From Ignavibacteriales bacterium (GTDB lineage: Bacteria; Bacteroidota; Ignavibacteria; Ignavibacteriales; Melioribacteraceae): a stretch of 64,000 nt of DNA. A program made the position numbers and the translations under genes. Of the stretch, positions 16,901 through 62,069 are shown one piece after another. Location of the stretch: assembly GCA_021740915.1 (NCBI GenBank), contig JAIOYW010000008.1:62001-126000 (forward strand), in the 5' to 3' direction. Below the pieces are notes generated by a model. That model was not told where the DNA came from. It worked only from the letters and a program-made list of their open reading frames with translations, and ran no database searches. Position 1 is the first letter of the stretch; every line of letters starts with the position of its first letter.

Positions 16901-19900
16901 GGTTATCTCCGCGACTGTCACATTACGAAATTTAGGTACCGGAATCGTTGAGAAAACAATCACAACTCAGGCAAACGGCACATTCAGTTCAGGAATAAAC
17001 CAGGGAAATTATGCAATTGTTGCAAGCAAAGACGGGCACATCAGAGATAGTATTGTTGTAAACCTAAGCGCTGGTCAAACTCTTTCCAACCTGTCTCTGA
17101 CACTCACCCAGAATTTTGCGCTCATGACAGGAAATATAACTGATACAGGCGGTCTGCCACTTGATGATGCTGTACTTAATCTTGACGGTCAATATTCAGC
17201 CACTGTAACGGCAAATGAAACCGGAGTATATTTGCTCACAGGAATTGTCGGCGGAACGTATTCTGTCAAGGTATCGAAGCCAGGATACAAAGACACTATA
17301 ATAACTTCCTATGTGATTACAGGCGGGTCGTCAAAATCTCAGAACTTCCTGTTGCCTCAACTGACCGGAAAAATATCCGGTATTATAAGCGGAGCCTCTA
17401 TCGGTAATGTTAAACAAGCTACCGTGTTTGCAAAAAGCAATACGAGTAACGAAGTGCTTGCAGAACTCTCCGATGATAATGGTTATTTTGAGTTCATAAA
17501 TCTAAATTTTGATTCCTATACGATCAGTGCGTCAAAAACTGGTATGACTAGTACGGCTACTGTCGCACTAACAATTTGGGCTGATAATCAGCAAGGCACA
17601 GCTGATATAAGTGATTTTATTGCCCAGAGTTCAAAAATAAAGGGAACTGTTGTTGATGGTTCCGGAACTCCTTTGGGTAATGTTCAGATTACGGCGAGCG
17701 GTCTTGCCGGCTCGGGCCTATCGACCTCATCGAGCAACGGCACGTATATTATGACGAATCTTACTCCGGGCAACTATACCCTCAGTGCAAATAAAGTTGG
17801 TTATACTTATGGGGGCGCAACAATAAGTCTTGTTGATAGTTTTGTTCTGAATCCAACTTTGATCAGGAATACATCTACGATAACAGGTACAGTAAAGAAT
17901 CAGATTGGCGAAAAACTTAGAATTCAGACTCAGGTCAAAGCCGTCTCATCCGGATCTGAATCATATACTGCCACTGTAGATGCAAATGGTAATTATTCAT
18001 TAACAAATGTTGCAAGCGGAAAACAATACACGGTTTTTAACGATATTTACCGGGAAGGGTTTGATAATGATACCTCGAGCATAACTGTACCCGAAGGAGC
18101 GCCAACTGCCGGACCTGTAAATCTGCAGGTTCAGGTGAATCTCTCGGGAATCAAAGGGAATGCCGGGACACCAACTGCAAACTTAAAGATTCAGAATATA
18201 TCGACAAGTGAAATATTCACAACTTCATCCACCGGAACCGGCAGTTTTGAGAAATTGTTCCTCCCCAACGGTTCTTACAGAATTACTCCAAATAAGCAGG
18301 GATTTACTTTCAGTCCTACAACCACCACCGTTAATCTTTCTGTGAGGGATACACAGACAGTTAACTTTACTGCTTCTTCGCAAGTTGGTAAGGCAAATAT
18401 TACTGTCAGTGAAAGTAACGGGACAAAAATAGCCGGCGTTGCCATCAGTCTGACAAATGCTGCCGGAAATACTGTCCTTAATGGTGTTACAAATACAGCC
18501 GGGAATGTTCTGATAAGCGATATTCCTTCAGGTGCTTATACTCTCCGGGCAAGCAAAGAAGGATTCTCTCCGCTGTCTCCCACAACTTCGGTTACCATTT
18601 CAACCGGACAGACTGCTGAATCATCTGTTCAAATGGTAAGAAACACAGCAAGGTTATCCGGAACTGTGTATAAGAAAAGCAGCACAACCTCAGTTCCTTT
18701 CCCGAATGTGACTGTTAAGTTAAGATATTCTACTGGCGTAACGCTGGTTGGTCTTACAGATGCACAAGGCAAATACTCTCTGAAAGACCTGCCCGCCGGA
18801 CAAGCTTATGTGTATGCTATCCAGAGTGGTTATACTACAGATTCACTCGCTGTTAATCTTGCGATCGGAGCAAACATTGCAAGAGATGTTAATCTGAGCG
18901 CCGCCTTTGTTGCTGTCCGTGGAAAGGTTTTACTTGAAGGTGTCGGGCTTAGCAATGTAAATATTACAGCTACCGGATCATCTGTAAATTCAGTTAAAAC
19001 TGATCAGAACGGACAATTTACTTTTCCGGCGCTGACAATTCAGCAGGGAGCAGGAGACTCGACTCTTTACAATATTGCAATTAACGATTCCAGATACCCG
19101 ATAAAATCCATTGTCCGGTCATTCACTGCTGCGGAAGCAGGGACAACAGTTACTTTAGGCGATTTTATTCTTCCCTCCGGTCAAATGTTCATCACAGTTA
19201 CTGACGGAAAGAGCGTCCTTCCAGGCGCTAAAGTAATTCTTACCAGACCTAACGGAGTTAACCGTACAGAAATAACCGGGTTAAACGGTATATTCACTTC
19301 GAAGAACGAGCTATTTAAAGGTACTTACAGAGTATCTCTTGAAAAAGAGGGTTATCTTGGACCTACTGAAGAATATACACGCGTTATTCTTAACGATGAC
19401 ACTTCCTCTGTCCGTGTGACTTTCAGGATGCCTTATATTTTTGATACTGTAGATACGATTTTTGCAGATGAGAACACTGTAATTAAAGTATTTTCGAATT
19501 TGACAGATGATGTTCCTGTTCCCACATTATATTATCGCAAATCTTCTGACCAGGAATTTACCGCTCTTGGAATGACAGTTTCCGGTGATACGATTTCGGG
19601 AACCATTCCCGCTCAATTCAGTTTGGAAGATATTGAGTATTATCTTGAAATCAAAAATTTAACAACCGGAATTCTGAACCGTTCACCGCACTATACTGTC
19701 ACTCCTTTAGCAAAAGGTATTTTAAGTGCACTGAAGATAGACCCGGAACTCAATGGACTCATTCTAAGGATGGGTGACACGTACCAGATTTCTGCGATTA
19801 TCAGAGATGGTATAGGGAACGACTTGAAAGATAAGTTCACCGGGACATCCAGCCCGGGTAAAATCTCATGGACCAGTAATGATCCTGATAATCTGCCGAT

Positions 19901-21083
19901 CACATTCCCTATTGCCTCTGACAGCACGATTTCTCTGTTGAATGCAGACGCAGCCGGTGAATACAGTGTTACTATTGAGACGGCATTAAATGGAGTTGAA
20001 CAGCGGAGAACTTTGAATCTGACAGTTACTGATGTACCAATATCAAGCATCTCACTCAGAGCTCCGCAGGCAAGAATAAAGAATTCATCTCCGGGTATCC
20101 AGATAAGCCTTACCGGGAAAGACACACTTAATAGAAGTGTGTATCTTGGAAGTTCCGCTGTTTGGATACTTGATCCAATAGGCGCCGGGACTATTTCACG
20201 CACCGGGTTTTTTGTTCCGAAAGATACCACATATATTGGTCGCCCGTTAGTAACAGTTCGTGATGAAGCAACAGGTTTCAACGCCAGCACAGAATTTAAT
20301 GTTTATTCAGTAGTTAATTCGGATAACTCATATAAACTTTATAATGCAAGAGGTGTTGAAATATTTATTCAGCAGGGTGCGGTTAATTTCCCGATCGAAT
20401 TATCATTAACAAGACCCCAGGCTGGTCCTACAAAAAAACAATATACTCCGATAGGTGAAAGAAACACTTACAGGGTAAGCAGCGATATCTATAAAATACA
20501 ATATAGAGGGAGCGTTGCGCTTTCGGGTGATACTCTTATCAAGCCAGCTTCAATGATTTTACCAGTCGATAAGTCGCTTAAATTTTTTGACGGTAAAAAA
20601 TATATTGGACGTTATAATCCCGAGTCTAAGCAGTGGAGTCTGTATAAAGGATCGGGTTCGTTAGGTAAAACAAGCCTGGCTGCTTCAGGACTCGAAGTTA
20701 ATACAATTTCATCGTTTGGTGAATATGCAGTGCTCAGCGAGAATGAGCCGCTCGGAATAAAACACCTTGCCGTTTTACCATCGCCTTTCTCTCCCGATGT
20801 GGCGCCGCTTAAGATTGGATATTTCCTGACTTCCCCGGACAGATTTGCCACTGTCACCATTAAAGTGTATAATGTCAGGGGTGAACTTGTGAAAACCATT
20901 TTGGAAAATGATCTTCAGGAATCTGGGAAATACGGTACAAGAACCGGAATTAAAGAAGTTACGTGGGACGGCAGTACCGATGACGGACGTTTAGCACGTA
21001 ATGGCAGATATATAATTCAAGTATTAGCTAAAGACAGCTCCGGCGAGAAGTCGGAATTAACTCAGGTCGTATTAGTTAAATAA
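13947..21083 (+). CDS. Giant secreted carboxypeptidase-regulatory-like repeat protein
   Basis: About 2378 residues. A signal peptide (LFCLLFFLSLGSINAQ) leads into a region of fibronectin/Ig-like character (about residues 130-460). Then come roughly 16 tandem CarboxypepD_reg-like beta-sandwich units of 85-90 residues, each opening like SGKVLNDLGTPVQLATITATSG and containing GNYSITL and SKSGF-type turns. An Ig-like segment near residue 1960 and a C-terminal FlgD/sorting-type domain (LPSPFSPDVAPLKIGYFL...ITWDG-like...NGRYIIQVLAKD) follow. Such architecture suits a long surface stalk or adhesin exported by the type IX system. I chose the ATG at 13947 over 13911 because of GGAG upstream and the signal peptide. 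It is followed after 17 nt by a PorV-like gene. Confidence 0.88.
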   Translation: MKKRIQLFCLLFFLSLGSINAQTFLLNPAQGYFLDDPGDLKYKLLFSQTDSVVFSWLANLTGTNSKIKIGLSSGNYNIKSIAVSGSRAGYKANQTPLNLSTGRYYAIVTNSNATTLAQIQADFAASPTTIKYSNEIQFVIEAPIAPVALNPSGVITEATPDFEWTSVAGVPAYYLIVSSTPFNVVTLPSGEVSVEGANIIWNFITTGTSVQYGELDPLSPYYIPAPPLIPGNTYNYTILNLYDESDISFASTVFSGVTAFTFQGTQTLTPPILVYPPDGATFSSDEYINFQWDPVPNANSYSIFLYQRVSTFAGNNQQFDVPIWNSTVTSTSISYPAVTTLTKSDYVWFVIPNDNSGAGVASQTSLFHYIQPIGGFRITCIDAETGSNFTNFEVEVNSLSGGVSPANPIIVSNSQSFSDSLVVGTYEFTAKKPNYYDSTFVVTITENGFVIANLAVRPYPALISGSVKDQFNAAVNDALITLKNVATTEEFLVQTNSLGDFSAALPRGTYTVRATKNGYIPSSQRTVTVEGDQLIISPHLTLTLDNASISGKVLNDLGTPVQLATITATSGSVTQQVVTDGNGNYSITLNSGNWLISVSKSGFIPSEPQTISLITGDNLQNQNFILVPRANQITGFVYKVTSGGSTPFADVTVTAIPTSGTPVTTVSTNSGEYSLSLRAGSYNIVASKQGYTSSAPVQLTLTLGIAQTISGVNFDMIPNPSSISGTVTGPDGAGISGVTVSTLSGVTGTTLPNGTYSISVSPGTRTLSAQKTGYVTPSPKQVSVLTGQNITGINFILSPNAATISGKVLNLQQPVVGATVTATSGSSSSSVTTNSNGEYTFNLQPGTYSLNALKTGFIGGATINVTVSGGQQSLNNNFNLARNLATVRGTILSNSGNPINAVTVIAENTTNSSKIFSTLSSSDGSYSLGVEGGAAYKVTLTEQVHSSYTETTSVLNAGDTKTINATLTANLSTVSGIVKDNLQSPVISATVTLRNLGTGIVEKTITTQANGTFSSGINQGNYAIVASKDGHIRDSIVVNLSAGQTLSNLSLTLTQNFALMTGNITDTGGLPLDDAVLNLDGQYSATVTANETGVYLLTGIVGGTYSVKVSKPGYKDTIITSYVITGGSSKSQNFLLPQLTGKISGIISGASIGNVKQATVFAKSNTSNEVLAELSDDNGYFEFINLNFDSYTISASKTGMTSTATVALTIWADNQQGTADISDFIAQSSKIKGTVVDGSGTPLGNVQITASGLAGSGLSTSSSNGTYIMTNLTPGNYTLSANKVGYTYGGATISLVDSFVLNPTLIRNTSTITGTVKNQIGEKLRIQTQVKAVSSGSESYTATVDANGNYSLTNVASGKQYTVFNDIYREGFDNDTSSITVPEGAPTAGPVNLQVQVNLSGIKGNAGTPTANLKIQNISTSEIFTTSSTGTGSFEKLFLPNGSYRITPNKQGFTFSPTTTTVNLSVRDTQTVNFTASSQVGKANITVSESNGTKIAGVAISLTNAAGNTVLNGVTNTAGNVLISDIPSGAYTLRASKEGFSPLSPTTSVTISTGQTAESSVQMVRNTARLSGTVYKKSSTTSVPFPNVTVKLRYSTGVTLVGLTDAQGKYSLKDLPAGQAYVYAIQSGYTTDSLAVNLAIGANIARDVNLSAAFVAVRGKVLLEGVGLSNVNITATGSSVNSVKTDQNGQFTFPALTIQQGAGDSTLYNIAINDSRYPIKSIVRSFTAAEAGTTVTLGDFILPSGQMFITVTDGKSVLPGAKVILTRPNGVNRTEITGLNGIFTSKNELFKGTYRVSLEKEGYLGPTEEYTRVILNDDTSSVRVTFRMPYIFDTVDTIFADENTVIKVFSNLTDDVPVPTLYYRKSSDQEFTALGMTVSGDTISGTIPAQFSLEDIEYYLEIKNLTTGILNRSPHYTVTPLAKGILSALKIDPELNGLILRMGDTYQISAIIRDGIGNDLKDKFTGTSSPGKISWTSNDPDNLPITFPIASDSTISLLNADAAGEYSVTIETALNGVEQRRTLNLTVTDVPISSISLRAPQARIKNSSPGIQISLTGKDTLNRSVYLGSSAVWILDPIGAGTISRTGFFVPKDTTYIGRPLVTVRDEATGFNASTEFNVYSVVNSDNSYKLYNARGVEIFIQQGAVNFPIELSLTRPQAGPTKKQYTPIGERNTYRVSSDIYKIQYRGSVALSGDTLIKPASMILPVDKSLKFFDGKKYIGRYNPESKQWSLYKGSGSLGKTSLAASGLEVNTISSFGEYAVLSENEPLGIKHLAVLPSPFSPDVAPLKIGYFLTSPDRFATVTIKVYNVRGELVKTILENDLQESGKYGTRTGIKEVTWDGSTDDGRLARNGRYIIQVLAKDSSGEKSELTQVVLVK

Positions 21084-21100
21084 AATTATCAGGGTTTTAT

Positions 21101-22084
21101 ATGAAAATAATAAAGAAATACTTGTTAATTCTTATTCTCGTTGCAGCCTGTGATTATTCTGCGCAGGAGCTATCGGGAATTCCCGGCGCCTTTGTTGACG
21201 TTGGCTTTGGCGCCAGACCGGTAAGCATGGGTGGGGCATATACTGCTTTCGCAAGCGATGTTCATAGTATCGTTTGGAACCCGGCAGGCTTATCCCGATT
21301 AAAGAAAAGTCAGGCATCATTCAACTATGTAAACCAGTTAGGGCTTGTTGATTATTATTATATGTCTGCTGCTATGCCTCTTTCACCGGAAAGCAGGTCA
21401 GCCGCCGGTATTCTGGTTATTTCTTCCGGAGATAAAGCTCTCCGTGAGTGGACTTTTGGAACCGCATATTCAAAAGAAATCTGGGGATTTCTTATGGGTG
21501 TGGGAGTCAAAGTGAGGTATGCCACATTTGGCAATAATACGCTTAGCAAAACTGACCTTATTATTTTTGAGCAGGATGAGATCGATGCAGGTTTAGGCAA
21601 TCAGGTTTTCGGAAGCGCTCTTGGATTTGGTGTTGATGTCGGTTTTCTTTTTGATCTTAGTGAACGTGTAGCTTTGGGAATATCATTCCGGGATATGATG
21701 TCATCATTGTCTTGGGATTCCGACAATAAGAACTCAGATCTTAAGCCGAAAGGTAAGTACTCTGAAGCACTTCCGACAGAAGCTTATATCGGACTTGCTT
21801 TTAAGGTTCTGGATGAGCTTAGTATTGCCGCTGATTATAGTCCGGGATTTATTCAGGATGCCAATCCCAAGCTTTTTGCCGGAGCGGAAGGCGTTCTTTT
21901 TAAAATTCTTTACCTTCGGGCCGGCACTCAATACTATATCAATAATGTCCAGGATGAAAAATTTACTCTGGGTATAGGGCTTGATATTAATGCTTTACCG
22001 GATATGACAATAAAAACAGATTTTGGTTATCTGATCGAAAGACTGGACAACACCGTGAGATTTACTCTCGGATTAGAGTTTTAA
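21101..22084 (+). CDS. PorV/PorQ-family outer-membrane protein
   Basis: A 327-residue beta-barrel protein with a signal peptide (LLILILVAACDYSAQ). The start of the mature part is diagnostic of the PorV/PorQ (UPF0164) family: GARPVSMGGAYTAFASDVHSIVWNPAGL. The remainder alternates amphipathic strands and ends LGLEF, an aromatic terminal residue typical of barrels. PorV shuttles type IX cargo to the attachment complex in Porphyromonas gingivalis. Its position directly after the giant protein suggests a dedicated partner, though family members also occur as orphan barrels. AtG/RBS spacing is ordinary. Confidence 0.82.
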   Translation: MKIIKKYLLILILVAACDYSAQELSGIPGAFVDVGFGARPVSMGGAYTAFASDVHSIVWNPAGLSRLKKSQASFNYVNQLGLVDYYYMSAAMPLSPESRSAAGILVISSGDKALREWTFGTAYSKEIWGFLMGVGVKVRYATFGNNTLSKTDLIIFEQDEIDAGLGNQVFGSALGFGVDVGFLFDLSERVALGISFRDMMSSLSWDSDNKNSDLKPKGKYSEALPTEAYIGLAFKVLDELSIAADYSPGFIQDANPKLFAGAEGVLFKILYLRAGTQYYINNVQDEKFTLGIGLDINALPDMTIKTDFGYLIERLDNTVRFTLGLEF

Positions 22085-26597: not shown

Positions 26598-29500
26598 TTA
26601 TTTGAGCAGCATCAATTTTTTTACAGTACTTGCTCCATTTTGAGTAAGAGAATAAAAATATACTCCGCTTGAAATCCCTGATGCATTAAACCGGATTGTA
26701 TATGTGCCAGGCTTCATTATCTCATTTACTAAAACTGAAACTTCCCGACCCAGTACATCATAAACTTTTAATTGCGTAAATCCGATTTCGGCAAGACTAA
26801 AACTTATATTTGTCGATGGATTGAAAGGATTAGGATAGTTCTGCTCCAGAGAAAATTTAGAAGGAACATCGGTATCAGGGACTAATTGAGTGGATATAAA
26901 TATTGTTGGGTCCGGAATTCCATCTGAATCTTTATCTGGTCTGAATGCAGCCAGATTCAAAAGACTATCAGGGCCGGCATTACCATCGACATCAGGATTA
27001 TCCGGAGCAGAATCACCGCCTCCATAGTTTAATCCTCCTGCGATCAGGGAAACAATCTGCAAGGTAACATCTGCCGGTACAAGTCCTGCGCCGAGACCAT
27101 AAAGATCATCCCATGCAATTGCAATTTCCACATCATTTCCATCACTGCCGCGCACTCCGAAAATTTTATCAGTCAGTTCATAACTGTTATTTGAATCTGC
27201 CCTGAAAAATGAAGGATTGCTTAAATAATAATCAGCAAAAAAATAGTCGATCTTATTTTCCTGACTAAACACAAAATTCTTTGCATATTCACCGATATAT
27301 CCGTTTTGGGAGTTGAAGTCAGTAACCCCGCCTTCAATTCCTGCATCGAGATATATCATCATAGTGTTATAGTCGTCGTTAAGAATGTATCTAATGCCGA
27401 TGTAAAGTGAATCTGAATCCCAGGTTGAGAAAATATCATAGAGCTCATTATCTGGCGGAACTCCTGGATTCCATTTGCTGTCATTGGTACTATCTGCAAA
27501 AATCAGCCATTCCTCACGCCAATCATCTATTCCGGTGGTGATTATACCATCCAAAACCGGTTTCCCATAAGTTGCAATAAGGGTATCGAGATTTTCAACG
27601 ACTCTGATAAAAAATTCTGTCGAATCTGCTCCGCCCTTTCCATCATTTACTGAAAGTATTATTTCATAATATCCGGTATCGGATATGGCAGGTGTGCCGC
27701 TAATAATGCCGCTTTCTTCACCAACCTTCAGCCAGGCAGGAGAAGTGATAAACTGGTAGGAAAGTAGATCAGAATCGGGGTCGTTTGATATGGTTTGATA
27801 CTGATATCTGTTCGTAGCTTTTATTGTTGTATCTGGTATATTATTTAGAAAGGGTGCAAAGTTCAGATCAACAGAAACCTTAAACGTGTCAGAAACGGAA
27901 GCACCTTTATTATCGGAGATATTTATTATAACATGTGAATCGCCTGTATCAGCATATGCGGGTGTGCCAGTTAGGTAGCCTGAAGAATTAACAGAAAGCC
28001 ATTGTGGATTCCCGGAAAGATTAAAGTTCAGTTGATCCCCGTTCACATCATTGTATATCATTTTATAGTTAAAGTATGAATTCGTATATCCCTGCTGATC
28101 GGGAATTTTATTCAAAACCGGAGGATTATTTAGCATAAGTGTGGTATCCGGAACATAAATTGCGTAGCCTCTTGGAGGAGCATATAATTCAACCCTGCCG
28201 TCAGAAGCGGAAATTTTGTCAATAGCAACACCGGTGTAATCCCGAAAAACCTGGTTTGGATAATCACTATTGACCCAGACACCTCGCCATTCAGCTGGAC
28301 TATCATTCATAACTAAATATACTGCAGGGTGACCGCTTCCGCCATCTCTTCTGGCAACATAAATATCCTTGGAGAGATCACTCTGTGATCCGGAACCGAC
28401 ATACCACGGGTTCAAGCCCGATCTTTTTGTTGTGCCTCCGAATATATAATTTTGCCTGATCCATATAAGAGTATCTATTTTACCCGAAAATCCGTAATCA
28501 AAATAATCTTTGAAAAAAACAGCAGGGCGCCCCTCAGAGAAAATTGTATAAGCATATGCCATCTGCTTATCATTAATAATCGGACTATGCCCATTATCGA
28601 TTTCCCCATCCCAGCCGATTCTGTCAAAGTCATGGTTTTCAACAAAAGTAGAGATATCAAATCCGCCGAGTCCAGAATTCACAAGACCGGCACCATCCAA
28701 CCAGTTCATGTCATAAGTCCCGCTTGTGTTGTCGCACATTTCTTTTAAAGAATAACGAAGAGGAAAATCGAACATTGCGACATCTGCCCCGTTTGCATTT
28801 ACAGTATTAAGCCAATCGGAGATTTCCTGTGTGCTTCCCCATAATTCTGCAACAGCATAACCTCCGGAATTTACATTGTTTAACCAGTAAGCCATAAAAA
28901 CAGGATCGATTGGCTTTACGGCATCAATACGGAAACCATCAAAACCAATAACATTTTTAAGATAATTACCCCAAATAACCAGACTGTCCCGCACAGACTG
29001 CTTGTTGTGATCCAGCCATTCCCCAAACCGGAATAAAGGATCGGTCTGGACAAAACGGGGATCGACCCAGCAGTTGACACTATTTGGATAAAAAGAAGCC
29101 GGAGATTTTTTGAATCGTCCGGAACCGGCTGGGTAATTAAAAATAAGATATGCAGAATCAGGAACGATCGGAGAACCATTATAGAGAGGAATGCACTCAT
29201 AAGCAGCGCTTTGTTCTCCGCCCATCATATGGCGCATAACAGCGTCGGCATAAACTTCAACTCCCGCATTATGAAAAGTAGAAATCATATTTTCAAGTTC
29301 TGTTCGGCTACCGAAACGTGTTTCGCGTGAACCTTTTTGGAAAAACTCGCCAAAATCATAATGATCATATGGATCATATCCCATTGAAAATGAGCCGCCG
29401 GCACCCTTAACCGCAGATGGCACCCACACAGAACTAAATCCGGCAGATGCAATTCTTGGCGCTAAAGCCGCAAGAGAATCCCACCAGATCCCGGCAGGGG

Positions 29501-29636
29501 GCGAATTCCAGTAGAAAGCCTGCATAAACACATCAGACTTCGGATTACTAAGTTTTACAGTGTTACTTTGGGAATAATTTAACCCTGAAGCAGCAAATAA
29601 TATAATAATAATGCAGAAAAACTTAAAATTTCGCAT
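26598..29636 (-). CDS. Secreted GH13 alpha-amylase with Ig-like domains and type IX sorting domain
   Basis: Extracellular starch or glycogen hydrolase, about 1012 residues. Order: signal peptide (FKFFCIIIILFAASGLNYSQ); GH13 barrel, with catalytic residues near D238 (GFRIDAVK), E265 (AVAELWG) and D336 (FVENHDFDR); domain C; two cadherin/He_PIG-type Ig repeats (LNKIPDQQGYTNSYF..., LNNIPDTTIKATNRYQY...) near 530-730; a beta-rich domain of about 200 residues (DWREEWLIFADSTND...) that may bind carbohydrate; and the sorting domain NYPNPFNPSTNISFS...SGVYFYSL...KKLMLLK. The ATG at 29636 directly precedes the signal peptide, with GGGA upstream. The cytoplasmic GH13 gene lies just upstream, suggesting a joint alpha-glucan pathway. 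Confidence 0.92.
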   Translation of the reverse strand: MRNFKFFCIIIILFAASGLNYSQSNTVKLSNPKSDVFMQAFYWNSPPAGIWWDSLAALAPRIASAGFSSVWVPSAVKGAGGSFSMGYDPYDHYDFGEFFQKGSRETRFGSRTELENMISTFHNAGVEVYADAVMRHMMGGEQSAAYECIPLYNGSPIVPDSAYLIFNYPAGSGRFKKSPASFYPNSVNCWVDPRFVQTDPLFRFGEWLDHNKQSVRDSLVIWGNYLKNVIGFDGFRIDAVKPIDPVFMAYWLNNVNSGGYAVAELWGSTQEISDWLNTVNANGADVAMFDFPLRYSLKEMCDNTSGTYDMNWLDGAGLVNSGLGGFDISTFVENHDFDRIGWDGEIDNGHSPIINDKQMAYAYTIFSEGRPAVFFKDYFDYGFSGKIDTLIWIRQNYIFGGTTKRSGLNPWYVGSGSQSDLSKDIYVARRDGGSGHPAVYLVMNDSPAEWRGVWVNSDYPNQVFRDYTGVAIDKISASDGRVELYAPPRGYAIYVPDTTLMLNNPPVLNKIPDQQGYTNSYFNYKMIYNDVNGDQLNFNLSGNPQWLSVNSSGYLTGTPAYADTGDSHVIINISDNKGASVSDTFKVSVDLNFAPFLNNIPDTTIKATNRYQYQTISNDPDSDLLSYQFITSPAWLKVGEESGIISGTPAISDTGYYEIILSVNDGKGGADSTEFFIRVVENLDTLIATYGKPVLDGIITTGIDDWREEWLIFADSTNDSKWNPGVPPDNELYDIFSTWDSDSLYIGIRYILNDDYNTMMIYLDAGIEGGVTDFNSQNGYIGEYAKNFVFSQENKIDYFFADYYLSNPSFFRADSNNSYELTDKIFGVRGSDGNDVEIAIAWDDLYGLGAGLVPADVTLQIVSLIAGGLNYGGGDSAPDNPDVDGNAGPDSLLNLAAFRPDKDSDGIPDPTIFISTQLVPDTDVPSKFSLEQNYPNPFNPSTNISFSLAEIGFTQLKVYDVLGREVSVLVNEIMKPGTYTIRFNASGISSGVYFYSLTQNGASTVKKLMLLK

Positions 29637-29778
29637 AGATTCCCAATATAATGTCAATAATTTTCAAAACAGCAAGATAACCAAATTTGATTAGTGTCTC
29701 AAACAAAGGCGCATATCAGATTGACAAATGTATCTTTGATTGAAATGTTGATAAAAACAGGTTCATGGCAAATAATAA

Positions 29779-43335: not shown

Positions 43336-46215
43336 TCAGCGTATCATCCATGAAAGTCCGATATATCCGGAACTCGAAGTATAGCCGACCCCATCCCTGC
43401 TGCTGCTTCCGGTGCCTATTCTTGCAAGAAGAGCGAGTCCGGGGAATATCTGGTACTGACCTTCAGCAAAAAGTTCGGTCAGAACATATTCGTTTTCAAA
43501 GATATAACCCAGTTTTCCTCCGACGACTGCCTTATACACATCTTCTTTTCTGAAATGAAAATTGGCAAAAACACTGTGCGATTCAAAGCCGATAGGCGAA
43601 TAATAATATGCCGATGAAAATCTGAAATTACTATAAAAGTATTCATATCCGGTTTCGATATCCTCAAGGAATTCCCTGCTGATTCTTACAACCAGAGTGT
43701 TTCCTGCATTTTCGGTCAGGTCAGAGCCATCTATCTGAGGAATTGAAAGATATTGGAATAGACCATCGAATTTTATACCATAAGGGTGTCTGTATATACC
43801 GGCGAGTTTATACATTGTTGAATTCTTTCTGACCCCCTCAATAGTTATCAGATATGGTGAATACAACATAAGTCCGGCATCTGTATTAAGATAATTACCC
43901 TGAATCGACCATAATTCATCTTTTGCAACACGCAGGAAAATATCTGTCTCCCTTTGCTTTGCCGAATTCAGGGATGTAATGCTTCCCATACTGAATCCCC
44001 CTGAAACCATCGGAGAGAATTTAACAAATAAATGCCATTTAAAAGTTGTGAAATCTTTAATCGCAATAGTGCCTTTTGTTCTGTTTCTGTAAAGAGACAC
44101 AGCGAAAGTCAGGAAGTCATTAATTCCAAGTTCAACGATGCCGCCAAAATTTCTGAGAGAGAAGCCGGCGTTATCTGAGAAGAAAGAATATACCGGCGCG
44201 AATCTTACACTTGTGGGGAAGCGCTGTATAATCGCATCCAACCCTCTTGCCGGAACCCAGGAACGCCGCTGTTTTAGTATGGCAAACTGTGCGGAATCCG
44301 GCTGGAATGAAGCAGCTGTATCGTATTGTGCCTCAGCCTGTTCCCACATCTCGGCTTTCGAATAAGCGTCGCCGAGATAAACCCTGTCCATAAAATTATT
44401 AGGATTAAGCTCAACAAGTTTTCTGAAATCATTTATTGCGTTCTCATCGTCTTCCATCTCAAAAAAGAGCTGACCTCTTTGAATAAGTACAGTCTCATCC
44501 ATACTTTGTGCAAGCAGAGAATTATAAATTTCAAGCGCCTTGGGATAGTTTTTTGCTCTGAACTGAATATCGCCATATTCCTTTTTAATGAGTTTATTCG
44601 GTTCCGCCTCATCAAGATATTTCTCATAAAAAGGCAATGCTTTATCGTATTTCCCCTCGTTAACTAAATTTCGTCCCTCTTCAAGAATCCCAAATAAACG
44701 CTCTTCTTCAAATCGAAGTTTGTGAAATTCAAGATTCGATTCTAATTTAATTATTTCCGGGTTCATCGGGTCAACTTTTCTTGCTTCGGCGATGTATCGT
44801 TCTGCATCGTCAAAATTATTCTCATTTGTTTCAAGCGAAGCAAGAGTTAATAAGACCGATAAATCCCGCGGTCTTTTTTGGTAAGCCTGCAGAATAAAGC
44901 CCCTCGCTTTCTCCAGATTGGAATTTGTCCAGACAGACAACTGACCCCGGAATAAAAGAAAATCAACATTTTCCGGCTCTGCTGCAAGAGCTTTATCCAT
45001 ATAGCCAACAGCAAGATCGAAATCTTTGAACCATGCAAGGAGTCGTGAGTACATATACAGCAGTCTCGTATCAGATTCATCCGGACGGTTTTCAAAATAG
45101 GCATCAAAAAGACCGATTGCCTCGTCATATTGCTCAAGATTCTCATAATTCTTTGCAATCATGAGTAATGCATCTTTATCAAAGGGGTCGTTAGAAAGTT
45201 TTAGCTCAGCATCAGCGATGCGGTCGTTATAAGCTTTTTCCCTGATTTGAGTAACAGTGCTCCAAAGGTCAATAAATCTTTGAGAATCACTAAAGTCGGG
45301 TTTTAGTTTTAATAATTCAGTATATGCTTCTTCAAAGCGATTGACCTTAACGAGTTCCTCAACGAGTAAAAATCTTGTCTCACTTTCGTTGGGCCTCGAT
45401 TTCAGAATGCGGTAATATCTGTCGATTGCATATTCCTGCGGCACCGGAGTTCTTCCTCTGTCATCTGCATCAATCTGATGATATAGGTAGGCATTTTTCT
45501 GTGCCAGATCAAGTCCTTCTTCAGCCTCCTTAAAAAATGGTTTTATTTTCAGGGAATTTTCAAAAGATGGAACAGCTTCTTTATGTTTCCCCTGCCAAAC
45601 CTGCATGTATCCAAGGCGGCTCCACAAGCGCCAATCCGAAGGGTAACGCTCAACATATATTTTAAGCCAGTCCTCTGCCTTTTTAAGTTTTTTAAGTTCA
45701 ACGAGGACATTTGTAAACCTTATTATCTCATCAGGCGATGCATTGGGGTCCCTTACCAGGTATTCGTCATACCACTGTTCTGAAAGTGCCCATTTTTCCA
45801 TCCAGCGGTAACTGTTTGCTATTCCCAGATAATTCGCAGGGTTCTTTGAGTCAATGGCAATCTCCCTTTTGTGCCCCTCAATTTTCTTTTCCAGGATAGC
45901 ATACCAGGTGTTGATTATCCTTTCCAACTCTGTACGGAAAACCGCATCGTCTTCTTTAAGTGCAATTGCCCTGCGCATATTCAGCCTGGCACTTTCGAAT
46001 TCTTTACGCTTTTCCTGACAGAGGGCAACGAGGTGATACCCTTCCGGATCCTGCGGCTTTTGGGCAATATATTTATTTAAAAGGGTGATGGCTTCACCGT
46101 AACGACCAGTTTTCATGTTTTCGATTGCACGTGCTCTTAACTCGGAAGTACCCACTTGCTGTGCAACAAGAAAACTGTTCGCTATGAATAGAATTGCAAC
46201 AAAATATTTTTTCAT
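43336..46215 (-). CDS. TPR-repeat protein with C-terminal outer-membrane barrel
   Basis: A 959-residue exported protein. A signal peptide (YFVAILFIANSFLVAQQ) is followed by about 16-18 tetratricopeptide units to residue ~650, for example GRYGEAITLLNKYIAQKPQDPEGYHLVALC and EKYLDEAEPNKLIKKEYGDIQFRAKNYPKALEIY. The last ~280 residues have alternating amphipathic strands (APVYSFFSDNAGFSLRNFGGIVELGINDFLTFAV...) and end GYIGLSWMIR, as in an outer-membrane barrel. This TPR-barrel layout recalls YaiO-like and PgaA-like proteins used in polysaccharide or protein export. It is divergent from the cytochrome operon, 260 nt away. Confidence 0.82.
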   Translation of the reverse strand: MKKYFVAILFIANSFLVAQQVGTSELRARAIENMKTGRYGEAITLLNKYIAQKPQDPEGYHLVALCQEKRKEFESARLNMRRAIALKEDDAVFRTELERIINTWYAILEKKIEGHKREIAIDSKNPANYLGIANSYRWMEKWALSEQWYDEYLVRDPNASPDEIIRFTNVLVELKKLKKAEDWLKIYVERYPSDWRLWSRLGYMQVWQGKHKEAVPSFENSLKIKPFFKEAEEGLDLAQKNAYLYHQIDADDRGRTPVPQEYAIDRYYRILKSRPNESETRFLLVEELVKVNRFEEAYTELLKLKPDFSDSQRFIDLWSTVTQIREKAYNDRIADAELKLSNDPFDKDALLMIAKNYENLEQYDEAIGLFDAYFENRPDESDTRLLYMYSRLLAWFKDFDLAVGYMDKALAAEPENVDFLLFRGQLSVWTNSNLEKARGFILQAYQKRPRDLSVLLTLASLETNENNFDDAERYIAEARKVDPMNPEIIKLESNLEFHKLRFEEERLFGILEEGRNLVNEGKYDKALPFYEKYLDEAEPNKLIKKEYGDIQFRAKNYPKALEIYNSLLAQSMDETVLIQRGQLFFEMEDDENAINDFRKLVELNPNNFMDRVYLGDAYSKAEMWEQAEAQYDTAASFQPDSAQFAILKQRRSWVPARGLDAIIQRFPTSVRFAPVYSFFSDNAGFSLRNFGGIVELGINDFLTFAVSLYRNRTKGTIAIKDFTTFKWHLFVKFSPMVSGGFSMGSITSLNSAKQRETDIFLRVAKDELWSIQGNYLNTDAGLMLYSPYLITIEGVRKNSTMYKLAGIYRHPYGIKFDGLFQYLSIPQIDGSDLTENAGNTLVVRISREFLEDIETGYEYFYSNFRFSSAYYYSPIGFESHSVFANFHFRKEDVYKAVVGGKLGYIFENEYVLTELFAEGQYQIFPGLALLARIGTGSSSRDGVGYTSSSGYIGLSWMIR

Positions 46216-46475: not shown

Positions 46476-47039
46476 ATGAAAAAAATGCTGAAAACAGCGT
46501 CCTTTCTGACTCTTTGTTTAGGGATATTGTTATCCGGTATTATCAATGCACAGGATAAAAAATTTGGCTATATCGGAACAGAAAAATGCGGTATGTGCCA
46601 TAAGAAAGAAAAAGAAGGCGAACAACTTAAGGTATGGCAGAACAGTAAACATGCCAATGCATATAAAACACTCCAAACAGCTGAAGCCGATGAAATAGCA
46701 AAGCAGAAAGGTTTTGCAACAAAAGCGGCTGAGACAGCGGAATGTCTTAAATGTCACGCCAGTGGTTATAATGTAGATGCATCGCTTCTGGATAAAAAAT
46801 TTGCAGTTGCTGATGGTGTTCAGTGCGAAACTTGTCACGGACCCGGTTCGGAATACAAATCACTGAAAATAATGAAAGACCGCAAACTGGCAGTTGAAAA
46901 CGGTTTGGTTGTATGGGAAGATGAAGCCGGCATTGAAAAGGGCTGCGTGACATGCCATAATGAAGAGAGTCCTACTTATAAGGCTTTTAACTTTAAAGAA
47001 AGGTTTGAAGAAATCAAACACTATATCCCGAAATCATAA
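46476..47039 (+). CDS. Exported tetrahaem cytochrome c
   Basis: A 187-residue periplasmic cytochrome. Signal peptide (ASFLTLCLGILLSGIINAQ) then four CxxCH haem sites: CGMCH near residue 38, CLKCH near 89, CETCH near 118 and CVTCH near 159. The layout GYIGTEKCGMCH, VWQNSKHANAYKTL and DGVQCETCHGPGSEY is typical of the cytochrome c554/multihaem family with histidine ligands such as SKHA. First gene of a four-gene operon with a porin and two larger multihaem proteins, so it probably feeds electrons to or from that complex in the periplasm. Confidence 0.92.
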   Translation: MKKMLKTASFLTLCLGILLSGIINAQDKKFGYIGTEKCGMCHKKEKEGEQLKVWQNSKHANAYKTLQTAEADEIAKQKGFATKAAETAECLKCHASGYNVDASLLDKKFAVADGVQCETCHGPGSEYKSLKIMKDRKLAVENGLVVWEDEAGIEKGCVTCHNEESPTYKAFNFKERFEEIKHYIPKS

Positions 47040-47060
47040 TTCAACTGATCCGGTCTGAAA

Positions 47061-48332
47061 ATGAAAAAAATATTTTTAATATTGATTATAATGCCTTGTA
47101 TGATAATCGCCCAGAATATATCCGGGCGATTTTCATCAAGTCTATACTCATTCGAAAGAGCTGATGCTGCTGGAGAAATGACCAATAATATCCGTTCGTT
47201 CCAGACGTTGCAACTCAGTCTTTCAAAATCGAATTTTGCCCTCAGGACAAGAATGAACCTGGAAGTCAATCTCACAAATAAGTTGAAAGATGATCCCAGG
47301 CTGCGGTTTTATAATTTATATCTCGAAGGCAGGGATCTTTTCGGACTTGCTACTCTTAAAATAGGAAGAATCCCGGTTTTCAGCAGTGTTGCTGGCGGTG
47401 TTTACGATGGAGCCGATCTGAAATTGAAATATGCAGACTTCAGAGTTAATGCGTTTTACGGCGGCATTGTGCCGGCTTATCAGAAACTCGAAATCAACAG
47501 CGACTTTGCCAATAACTATTTTATGTCGGGCGAAGTCAAATACGTTGGACTCGAGAATTTTACTTTCTCAGCCGGATATGCTGATAAGAATGTAAAACCA
47601 GAAAGTTATCTTACTACCAGGCTTGATGAAAATTATGATCCTGTCACTGTTCTTATCCAAAAAGCAAGCTCTCAGTATAAGTACCTTACCGGCGGTATCG
47701 CTTACGTTAAAGACGGCTTCGCCGATATTTATACGAATTATGAATTTGATCTGAATTTTGTCACCACTTCGAAATTTGAAGTCGCAGGCAGATATTCGCA
47801 GATAGAAAATCTTGGAATAGATATTTATTACGGTTATCGCGAACCCAGGGTGAGATACAACTCAATTTTCAGTGTGTTCGATTTTGGCAACACCAGTGAA
47901 ATCGAAGTCGGCGCTGATTATCAGGTTGTTCCGGGAATTACAGTGATCGGTAAATACGGATCTGTTCAGTATAAAGATGATAATTCAGGGAGAATAACAG
48001 CCGGGCTTAGTACAGAGTATGGAACATTTAATTACAGGAAAACTCTGGGTTATGCCGGCGAACTGGATGCTGTTTCAGTTGGAACGGCAAGATCATTTAT
48101 GGACGGTTTTATTACTCCATCATTAGCAGTCTCATATACAACATATAAACTCTCGGCAGATTCTGAGGAGAACTCACTTGTGTCTTTGCTGGGGGGAGTA
48201 AATGTCCGCCCATGGAGATTCTTGTCTTTTGATCTTCAGGGACAGTATATAAGTAATAAAATTTATAAGAATGATTTTAGGGTATTTTTCAAACTGAATC
48301 ATTGGTTCAGTACAAATTTGGGTTTATTATAG
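47061..48332 (+). CDS. Outer-membrane porin of a porin-cytochrome complex
   Basis: A 423-residue beta-barrel with signal peptide (IFLILIIMPCMIIAQ). It is composed of repeated amphipathic strands (ISGRFSSSLYSFERAD, LYLEGRDLFGLATLKIGRIPVFSSVAGGVYDGADLKLKYADFRVNAFYGG) and ends FKLNHWFSTNLGLL. There is no TonB box or other catalytic feature. Flanked on both sides by multihaem cytochrome genes (21-nt and 1-nt gaps), it fits the role of the barrel that lets a cytochrome pass electrons through the outer membrane. The functional assignment rests on gene order. Confidence 0.78.
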   Translation: MKKIFLILIIMPCMIIAQNISGRFSSSLYSFERADAAGEMTNNIRSFQTLQLSLSKSNFALRTRMNLEVNLTNKLKDDPRLRFYNLYLEGRDLFGLATLKIGRIPVFSSVAGGVYDGADLKLKYADFRVNAFYGGIVPAYQKLEINSDFANNYFMSGEVKYVGLENFTFSAGYADKNVKPESYLTTRLDENYDPVTVLIQKASSQYKYLTGGIAYVKDGFADIYTNYEFDLNFVTTSKFEVAGRYSQIENLGIDIYYGYREPRVRYNSIFSVFDFGNTSEIEVGADYQVVPGITVIGKYGSVQYKDDNSGRITAGLSTEYGTFNYRKTLGYAGELDAVSVGTARSFMDGFITPSLAVSYTTYKLSADSEENSLVSLLGGVNVRPWRFLSFDLQGQYISNKIYKNDFRVFFKLNHWFSTNLGLL

Positions 48333-48333
48333 T

Positions 48334-49533
48334 ATGAAAAGCGCGTTGATATACCTTGCTTCTCTATTACTTTTCGTAATTGTACTCGGCGCAGAAAGCG
48401 AAGATGATACAAAAACTAATAAAGAGATAATAAAGTTTTCACATTCTGTTCACGCTGAACTTGCAACCTGTGCTGGTTGCCATACGAATGTACCGGAAAG
48501 TGCGTCACTAAATGATAAACTGTTACCGGAAAAAGCTGCTTGTGCAGAATGCCATGATGTGGAAGACGACGAAAATTGTACAATGTGTCATTATGAAGAT
48601 AATTTCGCGGCACTTGTGGAACCATCGTCCGAATTAATTTTCAGCCATAAACGTCATTACAATGCGGAAGATAAAAACTGTGAACAATGCCATATTGGAA
48701 TGACTCAGGCTGAGTATGGATTTGAACTTATAAATGGAAACCCATCTATGGGGACATGTAGCGGGTGCCACACTGAAGATGGACCTGCGGTTTCAACAAC
48801 AGTTTGTGAATCCTGTCATATTTCCACATTTGATCTGACTCCTGAAAATCACAAGACAGTTTCTTTTATGAAGCAGCACAAATTTATGAGTGCATCTGAA
48901 TCAGCCGAATGTGCGATGTGCCACAATTCGGATTTCTGCGAATCTTGCCATGTGGGGACTACAGCAATGACAGAAGGAAATGTAAAAGATGATTTTTACG
49001 CTCCCTATTCCCCGCATACTTATGTAGATGGAACAAAACAACAGCAGATAACCCGCGTCCACGATCTTAATTTCAGATTTACACACGGCATTGATGCAAA
49101 AGGCAAGACCAATGAATGTGCTACGTGCCATCAGGAAGAATCTTTCTGTGTTACCTGCCATAGTGGCGCTGCTGAAGATTATGCGACCGAAGGATTTATG
49201 CCTTCTTCTCACCGGGTTTCCGATTTTATTGTGCTCGGAGTCGGCTCCGGCGGAGGTCAGCATGCTAAATTTGCCCGCCGGGATATTGAAAACTGCGCGG
49301 CATGTCATGATATAAATGGTGCTGATCCAAGTTGTATTCTTTGTCATTCTGATCCCGATGGTATAAAGGGTACTAACCCCAAAACCCATAAAATAAATTT
49401 TATGAAGGATATCGATGGCGACTGGCATAACGATGAAGGGTCGGTTTGTTTCACTTGTCACCAGGACGCTAATGCAAGACCTGAGGGTCAGAGTGGATTG
49501 TTGTTCTGTGGTTATTGTCATGGACAGAATTAA
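48334..49533 (+). CDS. Exported 14-haem cytochrome c
   Basis: A 399-residue cytochrome with signal peptide (ALIYLASLLLFVIVLGAES). I count 14 CxxCH motifs: CAGCH, CAECH, CTMCH, CEQCH, CSGCH, CESCH, CAMCH, CESCH, CATCH, CVTCH, CAACH, CILCH, CFTCH and CGYCH. Histidine-rich repeats such as FSHSVHAELATCAGCH and FSHKRHYNAEDKNCEQCH supply distal ligands. The first residues after the signal are not lipidated. It starts 1 nt after the porin gene and is the best candidate for the protein inside or beneath the barrel. Confidence 0.93.
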   Translation: MKSALIYLASLLLFVIVLGAESEDDTKTNKEIIKFSHSVHAELATCAGCHTNVPESASLNDKLLPEKAACAECHDVEDDENCTMCHYEDNFAALVEPSSELIFSHKRHYNAEDKNCEQCHIGMTQAEYGFELINGNPSMGTCSGCHTEDGPAVSTTVCESCHISTFDLTPENHKTVSFMKQHKFMSASESAECAMCHNSDFCESCHVGTTAMTEGNVKDDFYAPYSPHTYVDGTKQQQITRVHDLNFRFTHGIDAKGKTNECATCHQEESFCVTCHSGAAEDYATEGFMPSSHRVSDFIVLGVGSGGGQHAKFARRDIENCAACHDINGADPSCILCHSDPDGIKGTNPKTHKINFMKDIDGDWHNDEGSVCFTCHQDANARPEGQSGLLFCGYCHGQN

Positions 49534-49545
49534 TAAGGGTGCAAT

Positions 49546-50421
49546 ATGAAATTGATATATAAATTTATTCTGGTCATTATTACTTCTGTAGCGTTTTTTG
49601 CATGCAGTGAAATCGCAGATGATATCTCGACTCCACAGGAGAAAGTTAATATTCACCCTGAAGGTTTTGCAGTTGCCGGATCTGCGGGTTTTCATTCTGT
49701 ATATCTGAAGGTTACTAAATGGGACCTGGCTAAATGTCAGAGCTGTCACGGATCGAATTATGCCGGTGGAACCACAGGGGCATCATGTGTTGGCTGCCAT
49801 ACCGGACCTTCCGGGCCAGAGGCATGTAATACATGTCATGGCATTTTTGCCAATCCTGAAAGGACAGCACCTCCCACAGATCTTGACGGTAACATTGCTT
49901 CAACATCACCTGGAGTAGGAGCTCATTCAAAACATATCTATGATAACGATTTAGGTCCTGCAATGGGATGCTATACTTGTCATCCGGCTGCTACACCAAC
50001 ATCAGGAAGCTATGTTGCAGCGCATATTGATGACGGAGTTGCCGAAGTGCAGTTTAATCTTTTCTCACAACCGGGAGTTTCGCCGGATTCGAACTTCAGT
50101 GCTCTTTATGGATTTGCTGATAACAAATGTTCTAATGTTTATTGTCATGGTGCATTTGAGTTCTATAAAGACTCTGCCGCCACGGCGAATAAGTGGGTTT
50201 ATACCTCGGCAAAAATGTCCGGGAATTTTGTTGAACCGCTCTGGACAGCAGCAAGTGGTAACACTGAAGCAGCCTGCGGAACATGTCATGGGCTTCCGCC
50301 CACTGGACATATGCCGTTCCCGCTGAATTCATGCGTCTCCTGTCATGCTTCGGTGATAAACGGTTCCGGAGAGATTATCAATAAATTATTACATATTAAT
50401 GGTGAGATTAATCTGAATTAA
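49546..50421 (+). CDS. Multihaem lipoprotein with a CxxxxCH site
   Basis: A 291-residue lipoprotein; lipobox SVAFFAC with cysteine near residue 20. Six CxxCH motifs (CQSCH, CVGCH, CNTCH, CYTCH, CGTCH, CVSCH) and one CxxxxCH (CSNVYCHG) are present, giving up to seven haems. The combination KCSNVYCHGAF...ACGTCHGLPP is the arrangement of the Geobacter-type CxxxxCH/CxxCH domain. Lipidation suggests an outer-membrane or cell-surface location, so it may be the terminal electron carrier facing outside. Last gene of the operon, followed by a terminator. Confidence 0.9.
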   Translation: MKLIYKFILVIITSVAFFACSEIADDISTPQEKVNIHPEGFAVAGSAGFHSVYLKVTKWDLAKCQSCHGSNYAGGTTGASCVGCHTGPSGPEACNTCHGIFANPERTAPPTDLDGNIASTSPGVGAHSKHIYDNDLGPAMGCYTCHPAATPTSGSYVAAHIDDGVAEVQFNLFSQPGVSPDSNFSALYGFADNKCSNVYCHGAFEFYKDSAATANKWVYTSAKMSGNFVEPLWTAASGNTEAACGTCHGLPPTGHMPFPLNSCVSCHASVINGSGEIINKLLHINGEINLN

Positions 50422-50500: not shown

Positions 50501-51826
50501 ATGAATAAAATTGCTCAGGAAGAAATACTCGATTCGCTTGGTGAAGGCGTTTTCACCGTTGATAAAAATTTCAAAATAACCTTTATTAATAAGGCAGCTG
50601 AAAGGGTTACCGGCTATTCACGCAGTGAAGTGGTTGGTAAATTCTGTAAAAACATTTTCAGATCAGAATTATGTTCTCTCGACTGCCCGATTGCCAGGGT
50701 TCTACAATCAAACAATAACCTCTATGACCATGAATCGAAGATAGTCCGCAAAGATGGTGTAAAAACCCCCATTAAACTGAATGCCGCTGTTTTGTTTAAC
50801 GAGAACAACGAGCCCGGGGGCGGAGTGATATCTTTCAGAGAACTCGGAAGTCTCGAAAAACTTAGAAGCCTGATTGAAAAACAGTCCACATTTTTTGGTA
50901 TGGCTGGAATCAGTAAGCCGATGCAGGAAATTTTTGAACTCATAAAAGAAATATCAAATTCGAATGCCAGCGTATTTATCAGAGGAGAATCAGGAACAGG
51001 TAAGGAATTGGTTGCAGAAGCTATTCAGCAGACCTCATCCAGAAAAAATTTCCCTTTCGTTAAAGTGAATTGTTCGGTGTTCCCTCCCAATTTGCTTGCA
51101 AGCGAATTATTCGGTCACGTCAAAGGTGCCTTTACTGATGCGGTGAAAGATAGACCCGGAAGATTTGAAATTGCAGATAAAGGGACTCTTTTCCTTGACG
51201 AGGTCGCCGAGATGCCGCTTCAGATGCAGCCGCAATTGTTAAGAGTGTTACAGGAGGGAACATTTGAAAGGGTTGGTGAATCGAGGACCCGCGAGGCAGA
51301 TGTCCGTATTATTGCGGCAACGAATATAAATATCCACACATATCTCAGCAAAGGTTTATTCCGCGATGATCTCTTTTACAGGTTGAATGTAATTCCAATC
51401 GAGGTTCCTCCGCTCAGAAAGAGGAAAGAGGATATACCTGCTTTGATAAGGCATTTTCTAAATAAATTTTCTATTCTGTATAAAAAAGAGATATACGAAG
51501 TTCAGGATATTGGAATCGATGCTTTAATGAACTATAACTGGCCCGGAAATATACGCGAGTTGGAAAATGTTCTGGAATATGCATTTGTAAGAACACACAA
51601 TTCCAACATCATAACTTTACCGAAATTGCCTTCCAACATCAGAGGAGATAATAAGGTGATTGTTTCTGTTGGGAAGGCGGTGTTTTCAGGCGATAAGGAA
51701 AAATACGATCTGGTTGCAGCGCTTGAAAAATGGAAATGGAATAAAAGTAAAGCGGCGGAAGAATTAGGTATTGGACGTACTACGCTATGGCGGAAAATGA
51801 AAATATTCGGGCTTGATGATGAATAG
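50501..51826 (+). CDS. PAS-domain sigma-54-dependent activator
   Basis: A 441-residue enhancer-binding protein. The N-terminal PAS domain (about 5-110) has three cysteines in the pattern C49-x8-C58-x3-C62 (FCKNIFRSELCSLDCPI), which could bind a cofactor or sense redox state. The AAA+ domain has Walker A GESGTGKE (162-169) and Walker B TLFLDEVAEM. The sigma-54 loop at 209-214 reads GAFTDA rather than GAFTGA. A Fis-type HTH ends the protein (NKSKAAEELGIGRTTLWRKMK). It directly follows the porin-cytochrome operon and is the obvious candidate regulator of it. Confidence 0.9.
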   Translation: MNKIAQEEILDSLGEGVFTVDKNFKITFINKAAERVTGYSRSEVVGKFCKNIFRSELCSLDCPIARVLQSNNNLYDHESKIVRKDGVKTPIKLNAAVLFNENNEPGGGVISFRELGSLEKLRSLIEKQSTFFGMAGISKPMQEIFELIKEISNSNASVFIRGESGTGKELVAEAIQQTSSRKNFPFVKVNCSVFPPNLLASELFGHVKGAFTDAVKDRPGRFEIADKGTLFLDEVAEMPLQMQPQLLRVLQEGTFERVGESRTREADVRIIAATNINIHTYLSKGLFRDDLFYRLNVIPIEVPPLRKRKEDIPALIRHFLNKFSILYKKEIYEVQDIGIDALMNYNWPGNIRELENVLEYAFVRTHNSNIITLPKLPSNIRGDNKVIVSVGKAVFSGDKEKYDLVAALEKWKWNKSKAAEELGIGRTTLWRKMKIFGLDDE

Positions 51827-61944: not shown

Positions 61945-62069
61945 TATGCGGGTTTTGTCTTAAATATTAAACTAATGTGAATAATTTGTTCCAATCACTC
62001 GGGCAAATGCCTTTCTTTAACATGCGAATACCGTGATATTACGAATCGTTGCGGGATATACATATAAAA

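Follow-up and report, generated by a model that had tools for sequence, protein, structure and literature searches.

The locus

This report concerns an operon of four genes in a 64,000-nucleotide stretch of DNA (hereafter the window; positions 62,001 to 126,000 of contig JAIOYW010000008.1) from an Ignavibacteriales bacterium of the family Melioribacteraceae, and the possibility that it encodes a path for electrons across the outer membrane. The four open reading frames (ORFs) lie at 46476-50421, all on the + strand and separated by gaps of 21, 1, and 12 nt.

46476-47039, + strand: tetrahaem c-type cytochrome, 187 amino acids (aa), with PF13435 and 4 CxxCH motifs; likely a periplasmic electron carrier
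47061-48332, + strand: outer-membrane beta-barrel by AlphaFold2 model and structure comparison, 423 aa; putative sheath of the conduit
48334-49533, + strand: 14-haem c-type cytochrome, 399 aa, with 14 CxxCH motifs; would thread the barrel
49546-50421, + strand: lipoprotein cytochrome, 291 aa, with a lipobox, 6 CxxCH motifs, and 1 CxxxxCH motif; putative surface terminal of the conduit

An earlier note on this DNA had reported the same layout, with the same gaps and a lipoprotein of up to seven haem sites, and the ORFs and the motif and Cys counts confirm it. In operon order, the proteins hold 4, 0, 14, and 6 CxxCH motifs, the last with its one CxxxxCH in addition; across 2000 residue shuffles of each protein the mean counts were 0.010, 0.000, 0.126, and 0.040, and the maximum was 2. 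Every one of the 28 Cys of the 14-haem protein (14 x 2) sits in a motif. The 15 Cys of the lipoprotein are fully explained as 7 x 2 plus the one of the lipobox, and this count supports reading the CxxxxCH as a seventh haem site. A GGAGG precedes the start of the tetrahaem gene, and the single terminator-like site on the + strand of the operon stretch falls within the barrel gene, the number of such sites being inside the shuffled range.

The four proteins

The barrel protein has no match in Pfam, NCBIfam, or PHROGs. Its AlphaFold2 model is made up mostly of beta strands, in 24 strand segments, with a mean predicted local distance difference test score (pLDDT) of 83.6 and a predicted template modelling score (pTM) of 0.73. 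VIA-align placed the model against the siderophore receptor PirA with a Z of 20.8 (346 residues, 4.2 Å), against the FimD pore with a Z of 19.1, and against the PapC pore with a Z of 18.9; matches to receptor barrels, FimD, and PapC span Z 17-21 over 323-370 residues, with 331-346 residues aligned for PirA, FimD, and similar matches. We take these targets to be 22- and 24-strand barrels. The top Foldseek matches are FimD, PapC, and AlgE, and the matches listed by both programs are outer-membrane barrels; families beyond those listed may match as well. No plug domain is found within the 423 aa. Together, the model suggests a wide barrel without a plug, the match in fold saying nothing of function, and as modelled it would be wide enough to hold a cytochrome; a barrel too small for one, which the earlier note had named as an outcome that would count against a conduit, was not seen.

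A search with the barrel alignment yielded 160 relatives; the contigs of the best 80, which were retained, are mostly labelled Melioribacter, Melioribacteraceae, Ignavibacterium, Ignavibacteria or Ignavibacteriales, or unresolved Bacteroidetes. Mean entropy is 1.08 for the residues assigned by hydropathy as facing inward (n=140) and 1.47 for those facing outward (n=141), a stronger average conservation of the inward side that holds in 17 of the 24 strands; these entropies stand without a control barrel for comparison. The loop at 261-277 is nearly invariant (entropy 0.49), though partly poorly modelled. LptD was considered as the identity of the barrel and rejected: a weak match to the LptD family appears in 9 of 40 alignment members (best E 1e-4) and not in the window protein, and neither length nor gene partners fit.

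In the 14-haem protein, Pfam recognizes c7/c3-type repeats in several stretches, near the C-terminus too, and PF22113, an MtrC/MtrF-like domain, scores above the Pfam cut-off in both this and the tetrahaem protein. The profile of the 14-haem family best matches c7-type cytochromes (3ov0, E 1.1e-24, best stretch 33-168), with MtrC chains weaker; when the 14-haem sequence alone was searched against genome contigs, there were no matches. The N-terminus carries a hydrophobic segment, and no lipobox was seen there. Among homologues preselected for 14 motifs (98 rows, 97 distinct, the window protein entering twice), invariance extends to the 14 motif His, to 12 His outside the motifs, and to Met139; no row has fewer than 26 His in total, and the window protein has 27. 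Conserved residues would hence suffice for bis-His ligation of 12 of the 14 haems. Since only 12 non-motif His are conserved, two haems need another ligand if ligation is itself conserved, and two of the 14 probably have one.

The tetrahaem protein has a cytochrome c554-like domain (PF13435, 75 bits against a Pfam cut-off of 20.8), has cytochrome c554 as a PDB match (1bvb, E 1.8e-8), and bears a signal peptide by eye. It remains below NF043010, the cytochrome c550/CycA equivalog of ammonia oxidisers, with 51.3 bits against a cut-off of 400. Of its 6 His, 4 are in motifs, so that at most two haems can be bis-His. Among 96 rows preselected for 4 motifs (95 distinct, the window twice), conservation covers two His outside the motifs and Met133 (0.99), and exactly six His overall are present in 21. 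Judged from these residues, at least two of the four haems have no His as distal ligand, and the conserved Met133 may serve as ligand of one haem.

The lipoprotein scores 39.1 bits against a cut-off of 27 for TIGR01904, the CxxxxCH/CxxCH domain. CSEIADD follows its lipobox, and a lipobox pattern, mostly CS[DE], is present in 85 of 94 homologues; alignment rows were preselected at under 320 aa and include the window protein twice. The CxxxxCH motif occurs in all 94 homologues found, with haem sites ranging from 5 to 29. This is also the fastest-changing member of the set: mean identity to the window protein is 44.4%, against 52.9% for the 14-haem protein, and is the lower of the two in 79 of 81 cases. 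The lipobox and the variable haem number fit a surface terminal.

Distribution and conservation as a unit

Of 58 close relatives, the window's genome among them, 48 have the barrel, with a single match in each except G042, which has two fragments. Across the phylum it was found in 42 of 296 sampled genomes, all 42 within the class Ignavibacteria, and within the class in 186 of 294. In a profile search the window's own genome shows one more match, which is weak and short (E 6e-5), and a few genomes of the class have more than one. One that does (G421:C6:47956-54004) has two full-length matches about 5 kb apart, a possible duplicated conduit.

To count the genes around the barrel, 141 stretches (140 loci and the window) were compared, of which 140 have a recognized barrel (L165 does not) and 115 are distinct by identity of barrel residues 61-260. 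ORFs came from a simple greedy caller, the lipoprotein was counted only where BLAST matched it to the window lipoprotein, and other neighbours are labelled by best BLAST hit. Of the 95 distinct loci that have room on either side, 77 keep all four genes in order, a count that, with its 18 exceptions, rests on these automated criteria. Taken singly among distinct loci with room, the tetrahaem gene lies upstream of the barrel in 98/107, a 14-haem homologue lies downstream in 105/109, and the lipoprotein gene is present in 87/100. The third protein has 14 haems in 97 of the 109 found, with four homologues of 4, 5, 7, and 10 haems counted as called (truncation is possible), and the first protein has 4 haems in 95 of 100. 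By source, the full set is present in 70 of 79 loci within the order or from named records.

A quick barrel tree (59 rows) sets the order apart from the other members of the class at 100% support in the SH-like approximate likelihood ratio test (SH-aLRT), with 25 of 56 inner branches unresolved. Families within the order are not cleanly separated (3 changes for the window's family, 4 for family f3), and all family labels together need 12 changes (minimum 9, shuffled mean 29.8). This tree suggests that the conduit has been inherited mostly vertically. One locus from another family of the order (L059, genome G050) pairs with L168 of the window's family at 100% support, either by horizontal transfer or through a mis-binned contig. 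For comparison, each porin-cytochrome gene type of Geobacter is described as occurring in 30-50% of genomes, with frequent loss or exchange (PMC12977616).

Relation to known conduits

Three features of the locus are those by which porin-cytochrome (Pcc) conduits are recognized: a porin-like barrel by model, a clustered 14-haem cytochrome 1 nt away, and a clustered multihaem lipoprotein cytochrome. The porin-cytochrome logic read into the locus by the earlier note is supported, with a wide modelled barrel, a lipoprotein as last member, and a conserved four-gene unit. As to the Shewanella families, the 14-haem protein fails TIGR03508 (decahaem DmsE/MtrA-type), which we take to stand for MtrA, with 15.3 bits against a cut-off of 192.2, and has 14 haems, not 10. 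It scores 25.7 of 209.3 bits for TIGR03507, the OmcA/MtrC-family outer decahaem cytochromes, for which the lipoprotein, with its 7 haem sites, has no match at E up to 1.

What did not survive is the earlier suggestion of a variant conduit outside the described sets. Shi et al. in 2014 described for Ignavibacterium album, by record titles of the same class, a Pcc cluster of IALB_1840 (periplasmic), IALB_1839 (porin), IALB_1838, and IALB_1837 (outer cytochrome with an atypical motif), in which IALB_1838, with 400 aa and 14 haems, is given as the largest Pcc periplasmic cytochrome as of that year (PMC4245776). Compared by description, the window set of 187, 423, 399 (14-haem), and 291 aa, the last with CxxxxCH, matches this set on its consecutive locus tags, and the operon belongs to the I. 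album type. That account places the I. album porin and cytochrome outside five Pcc groups, as distantly related to the rest, and gives Pcc porins 18-22 predicted strands and Pcc periplasmic cytochromes 5-14 haems (PMC4245776). The Geobacter OmbB-OmaB-OmcB and Ext systems are alike in joining a barrel to a multihaem periplasmic partner and a multihaem outer cytochrome; again by description, the Geobacter complex has 8-haem and 12-haem partners (PMC4245776), whereas the window has 14 and 7 and adds a tetrahaem gene in front. Shewanella MtrCAB and MtoAB share the cytochrome-filled barrel, and MtrCAB also an outer cytochrome, and the MtrC/MtrF-like domain PF22113 is found in the 14-haem and tetrahaem proteins of the window; MtrB is given 28 predicted strands and MtrA 10 haems (PMC4245776), against 24 model strand segments and 14 haems here.

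Other reports touch on the same lineage. OmbB-like porin clusters were detected by hidden Markov model in two Ignavibacteria genomes, with a separate MtrB homologue in one, and Melioribacter roseus and I. album are cited there (PMC7399161); Geobacter-like pcc porins are reported in seven metagenome-assembled genomes (MAGs) of Ignavibacteriales (PMC6137239). A Bacteroidetes MAG has six multihaem genes and one barrel clustered, with best hits in Bacteroidetes and Ignavibacteriae (PMC8258643).

A probable conduit for electron export, and the alternatives

We consider it highly probable (about 0.85) that the operon encodes a porin-cytochrome conduit across the outer membrane, of the I. album type. 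It most likely exports electrons to an extracellular acceptor. A membrane-bound quinol oxidase, encoded outside the operon, would reduce the periplasmic tetrahaem protein, which would hand electrons to the 14-haem protein; this protein, partly inside the barrel, would conduct them across the outer membrane to the lipoprotein cytochrome at the surface, from which they would pass to an Fe(III) mineral, an electrode, a humic substance, or a partner cell.

A number of observations weigh against this. Foldseek alignments of the barrel are loose, with TM-scores of about 0.3-0.5 and a root-mean-square deviation of 9-17 Å among the matches listed. The AlphaFold2 model of the 14-haem protein is poor (pLDDT 54), especially beyond about residue 150, and threading through the barrel accordingly has no structural model; Foldseek listed two chains for this poor model, both alternative complex III (E 0.004 and 0.012). 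Outside the order, in the other families of the class, all four genes are found in only 7 of 16 loci (L151-L164, L166, and L167). The window's genome gave no match to the separate cytochrome b of relatives, an empty search that proves little, and only a weak match to their multihaem-b561 protein, though it has another gene that joins b561 and multihaem parts (L175, below). Moreover, growth of I. album with Fe(III) or Mn(IV) oxides was reported not to occur (PMC4245776), and a conserved conduit does not by itself imply that metals are respired. Finally, by eye the 14-haem protein has no clear signal-peptidase I cleavage site, and the KD19 mean hydropathy of its N-terminus is 2.23, above the 1.93, 1.84, and 2.06 of the tetrahaem, barrel, and lipoprotein N-termini, so that it may keep an uncleaved N-terminal anchor.

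These last two features would suit an arrangement in which an uncleaved helix holds the 14-haem protein in the inner membrane and another cytochrome of the set fills the barrel. The hydropathy difference is small, however, Ala is frequent by eye at a plausible cleavage site among the homologues, and the barrel and 14-haem genes are the tightest-linked pair of the set (105/109 with room; 1 nt apart in the window), all of which makes this arrangement improbable. Another reading is a reductase for a soluble compound, in which the barrel would admit the substrate and the c554-like tetrahaem protein would take part in catalysis. The c554 domain, the two conserved non-motif His, and the haems lacking a His distal ligand would be in keeping with it, yet in NCBIfam the four proteins all stay below the cut-offs of the catalytic multihaem families (c550/CycA, as above, 51.3 of 400 bits). 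These include the nitrite, hydroxylamine-pathway, and tetrathionate enzymes, so that the unrelated role against which the earlier note had warned was not seen either. Bis-His is the usual ligation of wiring-type haems, and conserved residues could provide it for 12 of the main protein's 14 haems; with a last gene whose lipobox and variable haem number fit a surface terminal, a soluble-compound reductase is very hard to credit.

The same conduit run inward, with Fe(II), a cathode, or a partner cell as the electron source, is an alternative of another kind, as it leaves the parts unchanged. The Mto and Pio systems are conduits that work inward. Oxidation by such conduits is mentioned in the I. 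album account, and the failure of that organism to grow on metal oxides would agree with inward flow (PMC4245776). Against it, Fe(III) reduction is ascribed to Melioribacter (PMC6137239) and to a Melioribacteraceae isolate from a mineral-water aquifer whose respiration is said to use iron, sulfur, or arsenic compounds (PMC11708057), and we judge uptake to be unlikely.

A broader statement could be ventured: that this is the ancestral, mostly vertically inherited conduit of the class and a Pcc lineage of its own, with a 14-haem wire longer than MtrA and reaching far into the periplasm, two haems with a non-His or partner-supplied distal ligand, and an expandable surface cytochrome of 5-29 sites. 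We put this forward only as a tentative and rather doubtful proposal, because of the 7 of 16 loci outside the order with all four genes, and because the ligand claim speaks of conservation and not of the His total of every protein.

Neighbouring genes, regulation, and electron supply

Beyond the operon lies a regulator gene.

50501-51826, + strand: PAS / sigma-54 activator / Fis-type helix-turn-helix regulator (PF00158 226 bits, PF13426, PF02954); neighbour gene

Its homologue is downstream of the operon in 17 of 90 distinct loci with room. Sigma-54 control of the operon by this regulator was considered and rejected, since presence of the regulator is not linked to -24/-12-like sites upstream: a score of at least 8 of 10 is reached in 1 of 18 loci where the regulator is present, in 10 of 79 where it is absent, and in 48 of 1940 copies with shuffled bases. 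The upstream stretches searched were up to 350 nt long, and that of the window holds no -24/-12-like site with a GG..GC core. Of the ten sites in regulator-less loci, six lie 57-73 nt before the tetrahaem start codon (L051, L066, L111, L118, L145, and L156, scoring 8-10 of 10), and those loci may be under sigma-54 control.

In relatives, the neighbouring genes fit electron export. Upstream, among 84 distinct loci with room, a multihaem protein homologue is the best hit in 40 and a separate cytochrome b is present in 13; the sole upstream multihaem protein examined, that of L035, has a C-terminal b561 domain and is plausibly a quinol oxidase. Downstream, among 90, a CcsB-like gene is found in 17, HemA in 12, and decahaem and rhodanese lipoprotein genes in 14 each. 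Stygiobacter electus (L141) has the multihaem protein, the four-gene operon, the regulator, the decahaem and rhodanese lipoproteins, and the CcsB-like gene in one stretch, and in some other families of the class NrfE/CcmF-like genes are near the operon (two were tested and fall below family cut-offs). The window's own genome has the decahaem lipoprotein elsewhere (L174:7884-10366, contig C20; 63% identity, 10 CxxCH and 1 CxxxCH), where its partner is a double-rhodanese lipoprotein and CcsB-like and HemA genes are close by. A rhodanese-like lipoprotein is also part of the Geobacter ext cluster.

Two further loci of this genome hold multihaem proteins. At L175:7399-11129 (contig C11), a b561 protein with an N-terminal 7-haem part (PhsC-like, 185.7 of 204 bits) is followed by the gene of an 8-haem protein with a distant resemblance to octahaem tetrathionate reductase (81.2 of 375 bits), a pair that is possibly a separate quinol-linked system. 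At L176:5693-8281 (contig C26) is a protein of 862 aa with 11 CxxCH and 1 CxxxxCH, N-terminal hydrophobic helices by eye, and ExtM-like character (207.8 of 800 bits), whose gene adjoins what by eye appear to be molybdoenzyme, Fe-S, and NrfD-type genes.

Within the window, a 959-aa tetratricopeptide repeat (TPR) protein is encoded at 43336-46215, divergent from the operon, its C-terminal part barrel-like by eye; at L042 a homologue (51%) is likewise divergent from and adjacent to the operon. Farther off, a 2390-aa protein at 13911-22084 weakly resembles an anammox S-layer family (86.8 of 1400 bits). A PorV-family gene of the type IX secretion system (T9SS) follows it, and 26598-29657 encodes an alpha-amylase-like protein with a T9SS tail.

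Significance

This analysis adds the class-wide distribution of the barrel, the counts of four-gene conservation, the 12-His ligand count, and the 5-29 range of haem sites in the lipoprotein. In those portions of the literature on such clusters that were available, no statement of the class-wide conservation or the ligand count was found, and one may still be in print. The ligand count makes a concrete and testable prediction, that 12 of the 14 haems are bis-His. As a design, the operon would combine a tight core, the barrel with its 14-haem protein, and a variable surface cytochrome. Multihaem genes of Ignavibacteriaceae are reported to be upregulated at an electrode, with the mechanism of extracellular electron transfer stated in 2024 as not known (PMC10874420). 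The operon, common across the class and present in a named strain, Stygiobacter electus, is a natural candidate for it.

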